Shown here: positions 28,096 through 50,483 of the stretch, piece after piece
How the letters are laid out: every line of letters starts with the position of its first letter
Numbering within the stretch: the stretch's first letter is position 1
Assembly: GCA_021846505.1 (NCBI GenBank)
Contig: JAJZWV010000021.1
Span: 1 to 50,483 of the forward strand
Reading direction: 5' to 3'
Length of the DNA stretch: 50,483 bases
DNA from: Bacillota bacterium
GTDB taxonomy: Bacteria > Bacillota > Sulfobacillia > Sulfobacillales > JAIMBI01
Notes under the pieces: model-generated
Databases searched by the model: none
What the model was told of the DNA's origin: nothing
What the model saw: only the letters and a program-made list of their open reading frames with translations
Program-made: the position numbers and the translations under genes

Positions 28096-28674
28096 GTGCC
28101 GCCCGGCTACCGCCCGCTGACGACGACCGAGGAGCTGCGCGCCATCGCCCACCCCCTGCGCCAGCGCCTAGCCGCCGCCCTGGCTGGCCAGCCGCAGAGC
28201 GCCACGGCGCTGGCCGCACAGCTGGGCGAGCCGGTGGCGCGCGTGCACCACCACCTGCAGGTGCTGCTCCGGGCCGGATTGGTGGAGCGCGCCGTCGACG
28301 TTCGCCATGGCCGCGCGCGGGAGCGCCTGTATCGAGCGCCGGACGAGCACTGGTGGGTCCCACACTCGATCTTTGGCGGCTCATCGCCGGAAGCTCGCGC
28401 CGCCTGGGAGCAGCTGGAGAGCCGGGTGGCGGCCGCCGCTACCGGCCTTCAGGCCGCACTGACTCGCTCGCGGGATGCCGGAGCCGATGCGGCTGAGACG
28501 TGGCAGGAAGCCGATCTGCGCATCCCAGAGCACTTGGCCCCCCACATGCCGGCCCTGCTGGCGGGACTTATGCGGATGCTGGAAGGGCTGGGGACCGGCG
28601 ACGGGCTGGACTACCATGTGGTGCTGGCGCTCCACCGAAAAGTCCCCCCGGCCTCCCGCGGCGATGCCCAGTGA
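28096..28674 (+). CDS. ArsR-type winged-helix transcriptional regulator
   Basis: A 192-residue protein. The N-terminal 75 residues are an ArsR/HTH_20 winged helix: LRAIAHPLRQRLAAALAGQPQSATALAAQLGE, recognition helix ARVHHHLQVLLRAGLVER, and a wing with GRARERLYRA. The remaining part is helical (EQLESRVAAAATGLQAALTRS, then HLAPHMPALLAGLMRMLEGL) and could bind ligand or mediate dimerisation. No metal-binding CxC motif is seen. GTG 28096 is the first standard start, but GGAGGT is 15 nt away; the in-frame ACG at 28087 has ideal spacing. It is coupled to the MFS gene by a GTGA overlap and probably represses it through the site at 28052-28075. Confidence 0.85.
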   Translation: MPPGYRPLTTTEELRAIAHPLRQRLAAALAGQPQSATALAAQLGEPVARVHHHLQVLLRAGLVERAVDVRHGRARERLYRAPDEHWWVPHSIFGGSSPEARAAWEQLESRVAAAATGLQAALTRSRDAGADAAETWQEADLRIPEHLAPHMPALLAGLMRMLEGLGTGDGLDYHVVLALHRKVPPASRGDAQ

Positions 28675-29843
28675 CCTCCCGCCCGTTTCGCCTGCTGCTG
28701 GCTAGCCGCGCGGCGTCGGCGTTGGCCACCGGGCTGGCATCGGTCGTCATCCTCTGGGTCGCCTCTCCGTCTGGTCCCGCCGCCCTCGCGCTCATTGGCT
28801 TGGCCATGACCCTGCCGCGGCTGGCTGCACTCGTGGCCGGGGTCCTCATCGACCGGATGGACCGGCGCCGCCTGCTGGCCCTGGTGGAGGGGGGCCGTGG
28901 GCTGACCGCGTTGGCACTGGCTCGCGCGGCCTGGCTGCCGCATCCGCCGCTCGTGGTGCTGGCCGGGAGCACCGCGCTGCTGGCGCTGGGCTCGAGCCTC
29001 TTTGGGCCGCTGGTGAGCGCTTGGATGCCACAGGTGGTGCCGCCGGCCGAGCTGACCGCGGCCAACGGACTCCAGCAAGGGGTGTGGCAGGGCGCCTCCC
29101 TCGCCGGGTACGTGGCGGGGGGCGGTGCCCTCGTCCTGCTCGGCGCCGGCGGCGGCCTCATGGCGGCCGCCGCGCTGCTGGCGGCCGCCCTAGCCCTGGC
29201 CCTCGCGGTGCCGCGCGCGGGCGGGCGACCAGCCCCGGCCGACACGTCCTTTGCCCACGAGGCGGCGGCGGGACTCCACGCCGTCGCGAAGCACCCGGCG
29301 CTCCGGGTGCTGGTTCCCGCCGCGCTGGTGTTCAACCTGCTGTTTGCCCCCCTGACGGTGGGCCTCGTGCTGCTGGCCCGCCAGTGGCACCTCGGCCCCA
29401 CCGGCTACGTGGCTCTGGAGGGCGCCTGGGCCGCCGGAAACCTTGCGGGCGGCGTGGCGGCGTCCCGATGGAGGCTTCTGCCCGCGGACCTGGCGCGCTA
29501 CGCGGTGCTGGGAGGGCTCCCACTCGTGGCCGGAGGGATGTTGGGCTGGCCGCCCGCCGCGCTCGCTGCCCTCCTGGCGGCCGGCATCGGAAACTTGCTG
29601 CTGAATGCCAGCGCCCTCACGCTGGTGCAGCAGTCGACGCCGCCCGAGCTCCGGGGGCGGGTGCTGGGCGTCTTGTTTGCGCTGGTGGGCGCAGCCGCGC
29701 CGTTGGGCATCGCGCTGTGGGGCTTAGCGGCGCGCCTCCTCCCCTCCGCGGCCGTCCTCGTCATTCCGGGCACGGCCTCACTCCTGGCGGCGCTCTTGGC
29801 CGCGATGCCGGCGGGCCGGCGGATCCTAGGAGGTTGTCCATAA
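28671..29843 (+). CDS. MFS exporter, C-terminus altered by an IS insertion
   Basis: A 390-residue major facilitator with about 12 hydrophobic segments, of the MFS_3/enterobactin-exporter-like type: FRLLLASRAASALATGLASV, the loop-2 motif GVLIDRMDRRRLL, and PPAELTAANGLQQGVWQGASL as in this family. It probably exports a drug or metabolite sensed by the upstream regulator; its GTG 28671 overlaps the regulator stop (GTGA). The last codons and the TAA stop at 29841-29843 lie inside the left end of an IS1182-type element. Beyond the right end the original frame continues for 14 more codons to a TAG at 31667. The final residues GGCP are therefore IS-derived. All membrane segments are intact, so the protein is probably still functional. 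Confidence 0.88.
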   Translation: MTSRPFRLLLASRAASALATGLASVVILWVASPSGPAALALIGLAMTLPRLAALVAGVLIDRMDRRRLLALVEGGRGLTALALARAAWLPHPPLVVLAGSTALLALGSSLFGPLVSAWMPQVVPPAELTAANGLQQGVWQGASLAGYVAGGGALVLLGAGGGLMAAAALLAAALALALAVPRAGGRPAPADTSFAHEAAAGLHAVAKHPALRVLVPAALVFNLLFAPLTVGLVLLARQWHLGPTGYVALEGAWAAGNLAGGVAASRWRLLPADLARYAVLGGLPLVAGGMLGWPPAALAALLAAGIGNLLLNASALTLVQQSTPPELRGRVLGVLFALVGAAAPLGIALWGLAARLLPSAAVLVIPGTASLLAALLAAMPAGRRILGGCP

Positions 29844-43054: not shown

Positions 43055-45582
<2,528 letters not shown>

Positions 45583-46509
45583 CTACAGAAGCGCGAACGC
45601 CTCCTGGCGCAGCACGGCATGCACACCGCGCACCTGGTTGACCAGCTGGGTGACGCGCATATCCACCACAGCGGTGGCCAGGGCCAGGGCGTGCGCACGG
45701 TCATGGAGGTCCAGCTGCTTGACCATCAGCGCCAGCATGGCATCGAGCGCCGCCATCGCCGCCTGATCCAAATCCGCGTCAAAGCCAAAGGTGATCCACC
45801 CCGCCGGGGTGGCCGCGTAGGGGGTTGACAGCAGTGGGTCGGCCTCCAGACTGAACGTTAAGTCGACCTGCTCCATCGGGCACTCAATGGCGACGCCGCC
45901 CACTTCGCCGTCCCCCTGGGCCGCGTGGCCGTCGCCGACGGAAAACAAGCCTTCCGGCAGCCCCACGGGCAGGTAGAGGGTGCTGCCGGCCACCAGCTCG
46001 CGGCAGTCAATATTGCCGCCGGTGCGGCGCGGCGGAATGGTGGACTGCCATCCCGCCACGCTGTCGGGCATCCCCATGACGCCCATGAAGGGCGCGACGC
46101 GGACGCGGTGCCCGAAGGCGTTGGCGGCCGTGCGGCGATTTTCATCTAAGGTCCACCCCATGCGCAGACGCGGCACACCCTCCAAGCCCATTTCGCGGTT
46201 CAAGCCCCACGGGCCGCCCCCGGCACCCGACTGGCCCCACGCGGCCGGCCGCACCTGCTCCACGCGCACCGCCAGCATGTCATGGGGCTTCGCCCCCTCG
46301 ATGGCCACCGGGCCCGTGAGCGCGTGGCCTCGATCCGCCTCTGGATCTCGCGGCGCCAGCACTGGGCCATCCGGCCCGGTTTGCCAGCTGGAGATCATGG
46401 TGGAAAACCTCACCGTGTCCCCCGGCTGAATGGTCAGCACCGGCGGGCGCTCGCGCGAAAAGGCCCCATGCAGATGGGGCCGCTCGGCCGACAGGGTGTA
46501 GTGTCCCAA
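45583..46509 (-). CDS. Acetamidase/formamidase-family amidohydrolase
   Basis: A 308-residue FmdA/AmdA-type enzyme hydrolysing short amides to ammonia and the acid. Signatures: GHYTLSAERPHLHGAFSRE, PPVLTIQPGDTVRFST, GHALTGPVAIEGAKPHDMLAVRV, MGVMGMPDS, PPRRTGGNIDCREL, GSTLYLPVGLPEGLFSVGDGHAAQGDGE with the metal-binding GDGHAAQGDGE, and GVAIECPMEQVDLTF. Start is taken as TTG 46509, directly before the conserved first strand, with AAGGGGCGG upstream; longer frames add about 40 non-conserved residues. It is divergent from the lipoprotein gene. True substrate not determined. Confidence 0.88.
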   Translation of the reverse strand: MGHYTLSAERPHLHGAFSRERPPVLTIQPGDTVRFSTMISSWQTGPDGPVLAPRDPEADRGHALTGPVAIEGAKPHDMLAVRVEQVRPAAWGQSGAGGGPWGLNREMGLEGVPRLRMGWTLDENRRTAANAFGHRVRVAPFMGVMGMPDSVAGWQSTIPPRRTGGNIDCRELVAGSTLYLPVGLPEGLFSVGDGHAAQGDGEVGGVAIECPMEQVDLTFSLEADPLLSTPYAATPAGWITFGFDADLDQAAMAALDAMLALMVKQLDLHDRAHALALATAVVDMRVTQLVNQVRGVHAVLRQEAFALL

Positions 46510-46685
46510 CTGTGCCGCCCCTTTCCCTTCCCGCTCCCTCTTGGGCAGAAGACGCCCCGGCGCGGGGCGGTCCCACTTTCCCGCGCCCTTCTCGCTCGGG
46601 TGCCACGCCTCTTCCGGACCATCACAGCCTGCCACCTAACCCGATGATACATCGTCGGCGGCTGCCGCCGCTCCGCAGCCGGATC

Positions 46686-46716: not shown

Positions 46717-46779
46717 ATCTTACCTCACATCACAATGCAGATTCCCTTTACTCAGCGTTGGCGGGAGGAATCGGCCCTG

Positions 46780-47871
46780 ATGACAACCAAAAGCACAGCG
46801 CCTCCGGCGCACAAGACGCACGCGGTGACGAGGTGGAGCCGGCGCTGGGTTCTCGGGAGCCTGGCGGTACTGGCAGCGGCATGCGGGCCGGTGGGCGCCG
46901 CCCGCACGGGCGCGCCCGCCAACAGGGTGCCACCCGCCCACACCGAGGCTCCGGCTCCCACGCCCCGCCACCCCAACCCGCCGCTGCCATCGCACGCCAC
47001 GATCGTGAACATCGTGCCGGGCGCCCTGCGGCTGGTGCAGGTCAGCGTGATTCACTGGCCCACCGCCGCCCCCGAAGTGCTGGCCGTCGTCGCGGGCCAG
47101 GGCAGTGGGCCCCAGTCCATTCCCTACATTCGGGTGGCCGCCATCCAGTGGAGCCCGGCCACCCACAACTGGAACAACACTTGGCGAGGCCCGGATATGA
47201 CGGTCGAGCCGCGGGCGCAACTGATGGGCACCACTCCGCAGGCCCAGGAGCACCTCGGCCGGGTTAGCTCCCGGGGCGTCTTTTACGGCCTGCTGGCCAC
47301 CAACGATACCGGCGACGCCATCGACTCGGGCGCCGTGCTGGTGTGGGTGCCGGCCCAGGGCACGCCACACGTGCTGTCCAGTGCGGCGCTGGCAAACGCC
47401 TATCTTCGGAACGCCCAGCTCGCACCGGCGGGCGCTGGCCTGCTGTTGTCCCAGGCCCTTTGCGCGCAGGGCGGCTGGCTTGGCCAAGTATCGGCCGCGG
47501 GGCGGCCATCGGTAACCCATCTCACCTGCGCGCAGACGGTGGCCCGCCTGCTGGGGACCACCGTGCGCTTCACGGTGCAGCCGGGCACGAACACGGTGGC
47601 CACCCCGCACCACTCGCTGACGGCCGCCCCCGGCACCACCATCGTGTTTCGCCCCGGCAATGCCTACACCGCCCAGCTGATGAACCAGGGCACCATCATC
47701 CCGCTGGGCCAGCAGGGGCTGCCGGTGTTTGACGACCAGGCCGACATGATGCCGACCTGGGCGTGGACGTTTCGGTCCTCTGGCGTGTATGGGTTCACCG
47801 TGATGACGCCCGCGACCGGCCAGCTAAGCTCGGGCGGCGTGCCGTCCACGTGGGTGGTGCACGTGCCGTAG
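46780..47871 (+). CDS. Putative secreted lipoprotein of unknown function
   Basis: A 363-residue exported protein. A twin-arginine-like start (SRRWVLGSLAVLAAACG) combines basic residues, a hydrophobic core and a lipobox LAAAC, so the mature protein would be lipidated on Cys near residue 36. A Pro/Thr-rich spacer (about 40-72) is followed by a beta-rich domain without a family I know. It contains TIVFRPGNAYTAQLMNQGTI and ends WAWTFRSSGVYGFTVMTP, reminiscent of a small cupredoxin- or Ig-like fold, which is only an impression. GGGAGGA is 11 nt before ATG 46780; a longer start at ATG 46735 is possible. The sigma-like gene follows after 120 bp. Confidence 0.75.
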   Translation: MTTKSTAPPAHKTHAVTRWSRRWVLGSLAVLAAACGPVGAARTGAPANRVPPAHTEAPAPTPRHPNPPLPSHATIVNIVPGALRLVQVSVIHWPTAAPEVLAVVAGQGSGPQSIPYIRVAAIQWSPATHNWNNTWRGPDMTVEPRAQLMGTTPQAQEHLGRVSSRGVFYGLLATNDTGDAIDSGAVLVWVPAQGTPHVLSSAALANAYLRNAQLAPAGAGLLLSQALCAQGGWLGQVSAAGRPSVTHLTCAQTVARLLGTTVRFTVQPGTNTVATPHHSLTAAPGTTIVFRPGNAYTAQLMNQGTIIPLGQQGLPVFDDQADMMPTWAWTFRSSGVYGFTVMTPATGQLSSGGVPSTWVVHVP

Positions 47872-47991: not shown

Positions 47992-49050
47992 ATGAGCCTT
48001 GGGCCCGATGAGCGTGTGGTCGCCGAGGAGTCCCAGGCGCTGGCCTCGTGGGTGGCGCGCCACGTGCCGGTGGACGCGGTCGGCGATGTGTGCCAGGACG
48101 CCTGGCTGGCGTGGTGGCAGGCGCGCCAGCGCGGCGCGGTGATTCGAGAGCCGGCCGCCTTGCTGCGCACGGTGGCCGCCCGCCGCATCGCGGACTTCCA
48201 CGCGGCCGCGGCGCGGACAGCTGCCGCAGCCCCGGTGGACTCCCTGGGCTGGGACCCCGGCGGCTCCCCGGCCCAGGTGCTCCACGAAGCGGGGGTCCAC
48301 CCCGGCTCGCTGGTGTGGCACCGGGTCGTGGACGGCTGGTCGCTGTCCCAGCTCGCGGCCGCGTTCGCCCTGCCGCTTGGCACGGTCAAGTCCCGCCTGC
48401 ACCACGAGCAGCTGAGCTTGGCCGCGCGGCTCTACCAGTGGCGGCATCCGGATGCGCCCGGCCATCCCGTGGGCCGCGGCTCGTGCCCGCGCTGCCGCGG
48501 CACGTTCGAGTGGCTCGCGCGGCCAACCTCGGATCGGGACTGGCATCAAGTGCTGGTCGTGAGCGTGCACAGCACCCTCGGCATCCGCATGGACTGCCGG
48601 CTTCGCTGGCACCCACTCGCTACCCCGCAGCACATCGTGAGCCATCCTGGCGACTGGCCCCGGCCGACCCAGCTGCGCGACGGCCGCGGCATCGGGCTTC
48701 TGGGCCGCCTCAAGCCCTCCGTGCCGGGCCCCCAGGGGCCGCAGCTGGGGTTCACGCTGAAGCCCGGGGATGCACCCGGCGCCTTCATCCAAACGCATCT
48801 GCCGCCGGCGGACGCCGAGCGCCTAGGCCTCGTCGCCGCCCGCCGCGGCCGGTTTGCCATCCGCGTGCCCCTCTCCTGCTCCCCCGAGCTGGACGACAGC
48901 TTGCTGGTGCAGCTGCCGCCCAACACCCGGGTGGACCGCGCAGCGCCGGCACCGGCCTGGCAGGGCCACCTGCACGGGGCGCCGGCGGTGCTTTGGCGCC
49001 ACACGGCCGCGCTGCGTTCGCCGCCTACGGCCGTGGCCGCCTGGGATTAA
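47992..49050 (+). CDS. ECF-sigma-like protein with a long C-terminal extension
   Basis: A 352-residue protein. Residues about 15-75 look like a sigma-70 region 2 (DAVGDVCQDAWLAWWQARQR, then AALLRTVAARRIADFHAAAAR). Residues about 100-145 look like region 4 with a helix-turn-helix (GWSLSQLAAAFALPLGTVKSRLHHE). The remaining 200 residues are not part of normal ECF factors. They start with a possible zinc pair SCPRCRGTFEW and continue as a beta-rich domain with QGPQLGFTLKPGDAPGAFIQ and DSLLVQLPPNTRV. Start ATG 47992 is preceded only by a G-run. No anti-sigma gene is adjacent. The sigma assignment of the N-terminus is good; the extension's function is unknown. Confidence 0.7.
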   Translation: MSLGPDERVVAEESQALASWVARHVPVDAVGDVCQDAWLAWWQARQRGAVIREPAALLRTVAARRIADFHAAAARTAAAAPVDSLGWDPGGSPAQVLHEAGVHPGSLVWHRVVDGWSLSQLAAAFALPLGTVKSRLHHEQLSLAARLYQWRHPDAPGHPVGRGSCPRCRGTFEWLARPTSDRDWHQVLVVSVHSTLGIRMDCRLRWHPLATPQHIVSHPGDWPRPTQLRDGRGIGLLGRLKPSVPGPQGPQLGFTLKPGDAPGAFIQTHLPPADAERLGLVAARRGRFAIRVPLSCSPELDDSLLVQLPPNTRVDRAAPAPAWQGHLHGAPAVLWRHTAALRSPPTAVAAWD

Positions 49051-49120
49051 ATCGCCCCCCAGCTGGAGAACCTTTTGGGCGCGGCCGCCGACATCTGGGG
49101 AAATCCCTGGAGGTGGCACG

Positions 49121-50395
49121 ATGAATACACCGAGTCCCCGCCCGCATGCCCGCCGAGCTCCTGGACGCCTCATTCGTGATTGGCTCCCCATCCGCCGCCG
49201 AGCCCTCGGCATCCTGGCGGCCGGCCAGTGGGTCTCCACCGTCGGCAATGCGCTGAACGGCTTGGCGCTGGGCTGGCTGGTGCTGAGCGTGACCGACAGC
49301 CGCGCCGCGCTGGGGCTGGTGAGTGGACTCGGCGACGCGGTGGGCCTGTTCATGATGGTGTCGGGCGTGTGGGTCGACCGCTGGAATCGGCGGCGCACGA
49401 TGCTGGCCGCCGACGTGGTGCGCGCCGCTGCCGCGCTCGCCCTCGGACTGCTCGCGCTCGCGGCGCGCGCCAGCCTTGCGTGGATCATCGGCCTGGTGGT
49501 GGTGAGCCGGCTGGCCGGCACGTTTTTCGCGCCGGCGTCGTTTGCCCTGCTGCCCGAAATGGTGGACCGTGAGGACTTGGGAGCGGCCAACGGCCTCTTG
49601 GCCACCGCCCGCACCTCCGCGGGGCTCTTGGGGCAGCTCCTGGGCGGGGTGCTCTTAGGCCTCTTGGGACCCGCCGCGCTGTTTCTCTGCAACGCCGGAT
49701 CGTTTGCCGCCTCGAGCGCGTCGCTGGCCGCGATTCGACCCGCCGGCGCGCTGACTCCCCCGCCAGCCTCCGGAGGGCTTTCGGGGATCTGGCGGGACTT
49801 GGTGGCCGGCCAGCATGTGATTTGGCGCGACCCCTTTTTGAAGCGCCTGGTGCCCATCGCCATGGCCACCGGCTTTTTCTCGGTGGCCATCTCCGTGCTG
49901 GACGTGGCCTGGGTGCGCCAAATCCTGCACGCGGGGCCGGTGGTCTACGGGGGCTTTTGGGTCGCCGCGGGTCTCGGGGGCCTCGCGGGCAGCGCGCTCT
50001 CGGGCCGCCTGGTGAAGCGCTTCGCCGTCATCCCGCTGAACGTCGCGTCCCTGGTGGCCATCGGCCTCGCGGTCGCGGCACTGGCGCTCACGCCGGTCGC
50101 CCTGTTCGACCTCGGGTGCATGGTGGCCATGGGCTTTGCGCTCGGCGTGCAGAGCACCAGCATCAACACGGCGCTGCTGCTGCTGGTGCCCGAAGCCGCC
50201 ATTGGCCGATCCATCGGCGCCATTGGTGCGCTCGCCAACGCCAGCGGCCCGGTGGGGGCGGTGGCCGCGGGGCTGGCGGCCACGGCATGGCCCCTTGGAC
50301 GGGTGCTGTGGCTCTCCGGCGTGATGGTCGCGCTGACCTCGCTGGGCCTGCTGGGCATCCGCACGCCGCCCGCCAGCGCAGGCGCCCCCGCGTGA
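49121..50395 (+). CDS. MFS transporter (MFS_3/MacB-independent drug exporter type)
   Basis: A 424-residue membrane transporter with about 12 segments. The opening RRALGILAAGQWVSTVGNALNGLALGWLVL, the loop-2 motif SGVWVDRWNRRRTMLAADVVRA, the PEMVDREDLGAANGLLATARTSAGLLGQLLGG signature and a central cytoplasmic loop (RPAGALTPPPASGG) are typical of MFS_3 exporters. Substrate unknown. GGAGGTGG lies six bases before ATG 49121. It starts 70 bp after the sigma-like gene and could be co-transcribed with it. Confidence 0.9.
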   Translation: MNTPSPRPHARRAPGRLIRDWLPIRRRALGILAAGQWVSTVGNALNGLALGWLVLSVTDSRAALGLVSGLGDAVGLFMMVSGVWVDRWNRRRTMLAADVVRAAAALALGLLALAARASLAWIIGLVVVSRLAGTFFAPASFALLPEMVDREDLGAANGLLATARTSAGLLGQLLGGVLLGLLGPAALFLCNAGSFAASSASLAAIRPAGALTPPPASGGLSGIWRDLVAGQHVIWRDPFLKRLVPIAMATGFFSVAISVLDVAWVRQILHAGPVVYGGFWVAAGLGGLAGSALSGRLVKRFAVIPLNVASLVAIGLAVAALALTPVALFDLGCMVAMGFALGVQSTSINTALLLLVPEAAIGRSIGAIGALANASGPVGAVAAGLAATAWPLGRVLWLSGVMVALTSLGLLGIRTPPASAGAPA

Positions 50396-50450
50396 CAGAT
50401 TCCGCGTACGGCCCCCCCGCCGCGCTCATACTACCCGGCGGAGGTGTGGC

Positions 50451-50483
50451 ATGGGCTCCAGCTCGGCTCCGATCGATTGGGCT
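50451..50483 (+). CDS. Start of a gene cut by the window end
   Basis: ATG 50451 is preceded by GGCGGAGG at good spacing and opens a frame (MGSSSAPIDWA) that runs off the window. Only 11 codons are visible, so no product can be named. Confidence 0.4.
   Translation, partial: MGSSSAPIDWA

Follow-up and report, generated by a model that had tools for sequence, protein, structure and literature searches.

A family of ECF sigma factors with a fused C-terminal domain, an MFS exporter gene next door and a conserved predicted promoter between the two

What does an ECF sigma factor control, and what controls it, when it carries a C-terminal domain of about 200 residues of its own and lies directly upstream of an exporter gene? 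ECF sigma factors are classically paired with a separate anti-sigma factor, about 55% of them are reckoned to be autoregulated, and autoregulation is the usual route to the prediction of an ECF promoter (PMC8103513, cited in part). The question is raised by a gene within the 50,483 nucleotides of Bacillota DNA analysed here (the window). As the original prediction had stated, no anti-sigma gene is called next to this sigma gene. The answer that we consider likely is an ECF sigma factor with a built-in regulator which serves a single local promoter and, once released by a signal, expresses the neighbouring MFS exporter. The gene and its sigma regions are:

47992-49050, plus strand: ECF sigma factor gene with fused C-terminal domain, 352 amino acids, start ATG (open frame; homologues; family profile against PDB sigma factors)
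48037-48216, plus strand: sigma region 2 (residues 16-75), with a D-V-x-Q-[DE] motif shared by every aligned member (Pfam Sigma70_r2, E=3.5e-4; alignment columns)
48313-48432, plus strand: sigma region 4 (about residues 108-147), with an invariant G-T-x-K-S-R (Pfam Sigma70_r4_2, E=0.002; invariant columns)

The frame is free of stops. Taken alone, the window protein gives only weak matches to the two sigma models, both under the Pfam cut-offs (Sigma70_r2 over residues 16-75, Sigma70_r4_2 over residues 108-137). These matches are not due to chance, because relatives exceed the cut-offs (33.8 bits against 24 for region 2 of L021, 54.4 bits against 25.7 for region 4 of L067) and because two further comparisons find SigL of M. 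tuberculosis: the family profile (positions 11-152), run against solved ECF sigma factors, at E=4.4e-19, and Foldseek, run with the predicted model of the window protein, as top match at E=2.5e-4. In the window protein, residues 1-150 constitute an ECF sigma factor comprising regions 2 and 4. The original prediction had called both regions recognisable and had proposed an HMM search of the sigma part; the relatives, the profile and the structural match bear it out. Full-length homologues of the window protein occur in several genera, and dN/dS values (NG86) of the extension are 0.33 in two pairs: G001/G003, with 0.32 for the sigma part, and the second copies of G002/G001, with 0.22 for the sigma part (the closest pair is uninformative: 0.37 at a dS of 0.08 for the sigma part and 0.75 at a dS of 0.02 for the extension). 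The window gene is therefore real and under selection, and the extension itself is under purifying selection.

Protein searches followed by profiles identified 18 copies of the family in 14 of the 154 genomes of the class; in most genomes only the best candidates of the first look, at most 20, were scored, and absence elsewhere is not certain. The window genome (G000) has two copies, as have G001, G002 and G003, while G004, G006, G014, G026, G012, G024, G023, G094, G097 and G099 have one each. Several genera have intact homologues; they represent two families within the order plus a further family of the class. Broken sigma frames are found in G094 and on contig C49 of G000, and broken MFS frames in the second copy of G001, in G026 and again on C49. 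The C49 locus (L029:7534-9965) is the second copy of the window genome and has a promoter match of 15/16 in its gap.

With the exception of a 28-residue match (E=0.008), which was not counted as a real carrier, searches with the extension profile in the 154 class genomes returned only copies fused to a sigma part, two of them with a broken sigma frame. Among 398 genomes of the phylum, with the best seven candidates at most scored in most genomes, the extension profile found only the window's own genome at E<=0.001; the full profile gave seven other matches at E<=1e-20 in the same draw (best four candidates at most in most genomes), all to the sigma part only. A scan of named genomes covered at least 59 loci: among the matches listed, the extension is present only in L098, apparently the same contig as C128 of G001, and the best of the other 58 loci listed, L099, is a plain 192-residue sigma factor. 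The literature searched, a scope outside which the main ECF classification paper (Casas-Pastor et al. 2021) lies, contains no paper on this family.

The gene downstream of the sigma gene is:

49121-50395, plus strand: MFS exporter gene, 424 amino acids, preceded by GGAGGTGG (best NCBIfam match TIGR00900, an H+ antiporter model, below cut-off)

An MFS gene is the next gene on the same strand in all 18 family loci (three with a broken frame). Between the two genes lie 54 to 642 bases in the 16 loci that were measured, and 70 bases in the window. The control set consisted of every other ECF-like frame in 156 loci. These came to 90 distinct frames, of which 88 had 700 bases or more downstream; the 90th had an MFS neighbour, was recognised as a fragment of the broken second G000 copy and was removed. 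None of the remaining 89 frames (87 with at least 700 bases downstream) is followed by an MFS gene, in a control that detects only MFS proteins resembling the partners.

Distances between sigma proteins correlate with distances between their MFS partners (r=0.89 for 14 pairs, reached by none of 5000 permutations, with shared genome ancestry inflating r). Both trees contain the same four groups, but differ in the order in which these join and in the placement of the window copy within its group. In G002 and G003, each of the two sigma paralogues keeps its own MFS type. When the 14 partners are analysed together with 16 other MFS sequences (one being the broken C49 partner), the 14 are not recovered as a single clade: four label changes are needed on the tree, at least two of them forced by well supported branches. 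The pairing has therefore outlasted the MFS lineage, and, as the partners are not one clade, the sigma gene has probably changed its exporter while always having one.

Seven partner proteins were scanned against domain models: all are nearest to TIGR00900 and most also match, more weakly, EntS, Tap and Mef, all below the cut-offs. These seven share no extra domain and match only models of MFS-kind transporters or the MFS part of fused acyltransferases. An MFS protein closely related to that of the window is encoded on contig C109 of G000 (L187:3788-5038), where its gene immediately follows one for a class III lanthionine synthetase (L187:5038-7665; NF038151 with 646 bits, cut-off 575), and this neighbour may hint at peptide export by that MFS branch. 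The window itself has a further MFS gene of the same broad kind at 28665-29801 (E=9.9e-42 to the partner profile), with no family sigma gene adjoining.

The constant presence of the exporter gene allows a different reading of the extension, in which the sigma factor still drives the exporter but the extension senses no ligand: the exporter, or another membrane protein, would hold the sigma factor via the extension and release it on transport. The adjoining MFS gene in every locus, the use of several MFS clades and the correlated distances would suit this, and activation by protein interaction is the model proposed for ECF42 (PMC8999054, in part). We nevertheless regard it as unlikely, as the seven scanned partners belong to separate clades and have no additional domain in common, and an interface conserved over such different partners is less easily imagined than a small-molecule site.

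The reading that we prefer, a sigma factor with a built-in regulator, places the target promoter in the gap between the two genes. The predicted elements are:

49068-49076, plus strand: -35 element GAACCTTTT of a predicted ECF promoter (site scoring with held-out matrices)
49088-49094, plus strand: -10 element CCGACAT, 11 bases past the -35 block (site scoring with held-out matrices)

In the window, GAACCTTTT-N11-CCGACAT (49068-49094) is followed by GGAGGTGG and then by the MFS start codon ATG at 49121. The family consensus of the predicted promoter is GAACCTTTT-N11-CCGA(C/T)(A/G)T. ECF promoters typically have AAC at -35 and CGT at -10 (PMC8103513, in part); the predicted promoter has GAAC at -35, thus containing the first hallmark, and CGA(C/T) instead of CGT at -10. 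Both blocks were recognised by eye and then by scripted scoring, at an identical spacing of 11 bases, in 17 of the 18 loci, the spacing in G097 being that read in the held-out test described below. The exception, G023, has a weak variant with a spacing of 10 bases, GAACCAATC-N10-CCGACTC, which fails the held-out test. In this test, a matrix made from the other clades was run on both strands of the whole loci of the left-out clade: the gap site ranked first among 13,288-100,914 positions in 16 of 18 loci, ranked second in G014 and was not found in G023, the blocks having been picked from these same loci beforehand. Shuffles of a locus's own gap reached the site score at most twice in 200 in 15 loci; the sites of G004 (9/200), G014 (16/200) and G023 (50/200) are not outstanding singly.

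The original prediction had also proposed a genome search for the deduced motif. The pattern GAACYTTTN12CCGAYRT is matched exactly at seven positions in the 14 carrier genomes, every one of them within a sigma-MFS gap; seven carriers have the exact pattern, and the orthologues of the window copy have CCGACCA at -10. The whole class has only four further exact matches, all in the 140 non-carriers and all inside called genes (11 matches in total, against three for the backward control pattern); Fisher's test of carriers against non-carriers gives p=2.7e-6, a value that ignores relatedness and the origin of the pattern. With up to two mismatches, the window has two matches where 0.13 are expected, the exact one in the gap and another with two mismatches. 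The predicted gap promoter is conserved and nearly unique.

Allowing up to one mismatch gives 37 places in the 14 carrier genomes, of which 13 are at family loci; the backward control gives 14. Thirteen of the other 24 places were examined: 11 lie in or overlap called genes and two are intergenic with no called gene after them on that strand; the pattern search in these 14 genomes thus gave no clear wider regulon. A site for autoregulation was likewise not found above shuffles when the 300 bases preceding the sigma gene were searched in 16 of the 18 loci, the best candidate, in G099, being reached by 4 of 100 shuffles.

The carrier genomes have further ECF-like genes, and the gap site could in principle be a promoter for one of these, with the sigma gene here being a mere neighbour or acting elsewhere. 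This is improbable: the exact site is confined to gaps in half of the carriers and to the inside of genes in the few non-carriers that have it, a site stands beside both G000 copies, and a sigma factor shared with other genes should have other targets.

The remaining part of the protein, by which the sigma factor would be regulated, has two segments:

48445-48519, plus strand: residues 152-176, zinc/anti-sigma-like segment in degenerate form, with H152, H158 and C165-x2-C168 followed by a helix in the low-confidence model (sequence, family alignment and zf-HC2)
48547-49047, plus strand: beta-rich domain, residues 186-352 (low-confidence AlphaFold models)

The last 200 residues or so of the window protein have no significant sequence match in Pfam or PDB, and a Pfam search with 15 members found none either, in agreement with the original prediction, which had seen no known counterpart. 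It had also noted a CxxC, present as C165-x2-C168, and had taken the start of the extension for a possible zinc knuckle. This last point holds in part. Four cysteines are present in the extension of the window copy, and the zinc segment has the CxxC with two nearby histidines, not a canonical motif; the window copy is the only one of 16 copies with CxxC alone, and its three orthologues have CxCxxC with a preceding histidine. HxxxCxxC is the signature used for zinc-binding anti-sigma domains (PMC7406223, in part) and follows region 4 in two of the 16 copies (L067 and L069); the broken copy L068 also has C...HxxxCxxC at this position. CxH-x10-CxxC, seen in another clade, occurs in seven of the 16. 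In the remaining three (G012, G024, G023) the zinc ligands are absent, and zinc can therefore not be the general signal. A zf-HC2 match was obtained for one of 15 members in Pfam, below threshold (best E=0.0014).

Structure prediction, which the original prediction had suggested for residues 150-352, gave two AlphaFold models from two-sequence alignments with mean pLDDT values of 52.2 and 50.6: these low-confidence models consist mostly of strands, with a helix at residues 166-175, and no fold was drawn from them. Foldseek with the low-confidence extension model found nothing at E<=0.001, and a second comparison gave only middling rows with Z up to 7.0. The last strands may resemble surface beta-sandwich repeats. 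Hydropathy gave no sign of a membrane helix: the highest 19-residue mean is 1.14 in the window protein and at most 1.58 over 16 members, the latter within region 4. All 11 invariant columns of the 15-member alignment lie within regions 2 and 4, and conservation in the extension is limited to two nearly invariant prolines; invariant sigma regions with a variable extension would fit a constant promoter with a diverging sensor.

The extension could instead sense redox state or zinc as a soluble domain of the RsrA/ChrR type, with the exporter as one effector of that stress. The canonical motif in L067 and L069, the CxH-x10-CxxC copies and the sub-threshold zf-HC2 match point in this direction, and soluble class I anti-sigma domains often bind zinc, class I groups having zinc and non-zinc members mixed (PMC7406223, in part). 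It is a doubtful explanation all the same, given that the ligands are gone in three copies and incomplete in the window copy, that the beta-rich domain is left unexplained and that the genome-wide pattern search, with 13 of the 24 other places examined, gave no clear wider regulon.

Apart from the MFS gene, the surroundings differ between groups of loci: by names read from translations, the gene upstream is aroC-like in G001-G003, peptidyl-prolyl isomerase-like beside the second copies, and another gene elsewhere. In the window, a lipoprotein-like gene (46735-47871) precedes the sigma gene, and a second, distant copy of it is found on contig C80 of G000. The original prediction had suggested that lipoprotein, sigma factor and exporter could form one unit. 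The exporter belongs to this unit and the lipoprotein does not: homologues of the lipoprotein occur patchily, in five of 31 genomes, and it matched no sigma locus of the relatives, which have other genes upstream; we rejected the triad. Further upstream, on the minus strand (43055-46635), are a peroxidase-family gene (PF00141, 727 amino acids), which we take to be KatG-like, and a formamidase/acetamidase-family gene (PF03069).

As a single contig from a draft genome, the window stops just past the MFS gene. Over the last 752 bases (49732-50483) it shares 94.3% identity with the end of another contig of this genome, C39. Genes lying further along C39 correspond to the ones that follow the MFS gene in G001-G003; C39 is probably the continuation of the window, the two differing by strain variation where the contig breaks off. 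Such a contig end and the broken frames of some copies might suggest an assembly accident or a decaying gene without function, but this can be dismissed in view of the intact homologues across the class, the purifying selection and the conserved promoter.

The sigma identity, the conserved fusion, the conserved exporter neighbour and the conserved promoter were all computed, and the mechanism that we propose builds on them. Sigma regions 2 and 4 (residues 1-150) would bring RNA polymerase to GAACCTTTT-N11-CCGACAT in the 70-base gap, and transcription from there would lead to production of the neighbouring MFS exporter. The sigma gene itself lies outside the reach of the gap promoter and there would therefore be no positive feedback. 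The fused cytoplasmic domain, with its anti-sigma-like and often zinc-binding segment and its beta-rich domain, would most likely keep the sigma factor inactive until the signal arrives, an inhibition that is suggested by analogy to other ECF groups; the signal would be related to the exporter substrate and is plausibly the compound that the exporter removes. The extension is likely the on/off switch of the sigma factor, since a separate anti-sigma gene is not called next to the sigma gene and since activity is under the control of fused extensions in other ECF groups (PMC8999054, in part). A bolder version, to which we give slightly less than even chances, is a new ECF group acting as an efflux switch of one protein and one promoter, in which a soluble sensor rich in beta structure would bind a toxic compound or peptide directly and fire the promoter of whichever MFS gene adjoins, the sigma-promoter code being fixed while the exporters are exchanged.

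The members of the family are ECF sigma factors whose extension is of the regulatory kind; they may fall into a numbered ECF group with undescribed function and differ from ECF48/52/53, CorE and ECF42 in the features given below. Local control of drug efflux, with a neighbouring efflux pump as the single target, is also exerted by regulators such as those of the TetR, MarR and MerR families. These act as repressor or activator on a housekeeping promoter, whereas the window system would work through a sigma factor and a dedicated promoter. ECF48, ECF52 (SCO4117) and ECF53 of Actinobacteria are similar in having an ECF core with a C-terminal anti-sigma-like zinc segment, which takes the Hx3CxxC form in two of 16 copies of the window family, but are described with one or two transmembrane helices and, for ECF52, an additional carbohydrate-binding domain beyond the membrane (PMC8999054 and PMC5826349, both in part); the extension of the window family looks soluble and beta-rich and has no transmembrane helix by hydropathy. 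SCO4117 has pleiotropic action and suggested autoregulation (same sources), in contrast to one predicted neighbouring target and no sign of autoregulation here.

Soluble C-terminal regulatory domains are also found in ECF41 and ECF56 (SigJ; SigG1), there with a SnoaL_2 extension, and the SigG1 regulon includes an MFS gene (PMC7730460, in part). SigG1 differs in having a separate anti-sigma factor, RsfG, and its MFS target STSU_23024 has a locus tag far from that of sigG1 (STSU_11560) (same source); the Pfam sequence search with 15 members found no SnoaL match, the fold of the extension being modelled only at low confidence, and at the level of fold the family may still be of the ECF41/56 kind. 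CorE and CorE2 (ECF238) are one-component sigma factors with a soluble extension that senses the signal directly; in CorE, a cysteine-rich domain is accompanied by a CxC in the linker between sigma2 and sigma4, the CxC not being kept in most of ECF238 (PMC8999054, in part), while the linker of the window protein (residues 76 to 105) has no cysteine. ECF42 has a TPR extension, whereas Pfam found no TPR match in 15 members of the window family and the low-confidence model is mostly strands.

In this family, the deduction of a target did not depend on autoregulation but on a conserved promoter lying between two genes, the products of which have diverged down to identities of about 20-25%. The arrangement of sigma gene and exporter gene is shared by distant relatives within a single bacterial class. 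The family offers a sigma-promoter pair that is ready for use and has its regulator built in, a testable case of the control of sigma factors by fused domains, and possibly a ligand-responsive one-component switch for synthetic circuits. As sigma activity would report the inducer, it may also provide a route to the substrates of the exporters.
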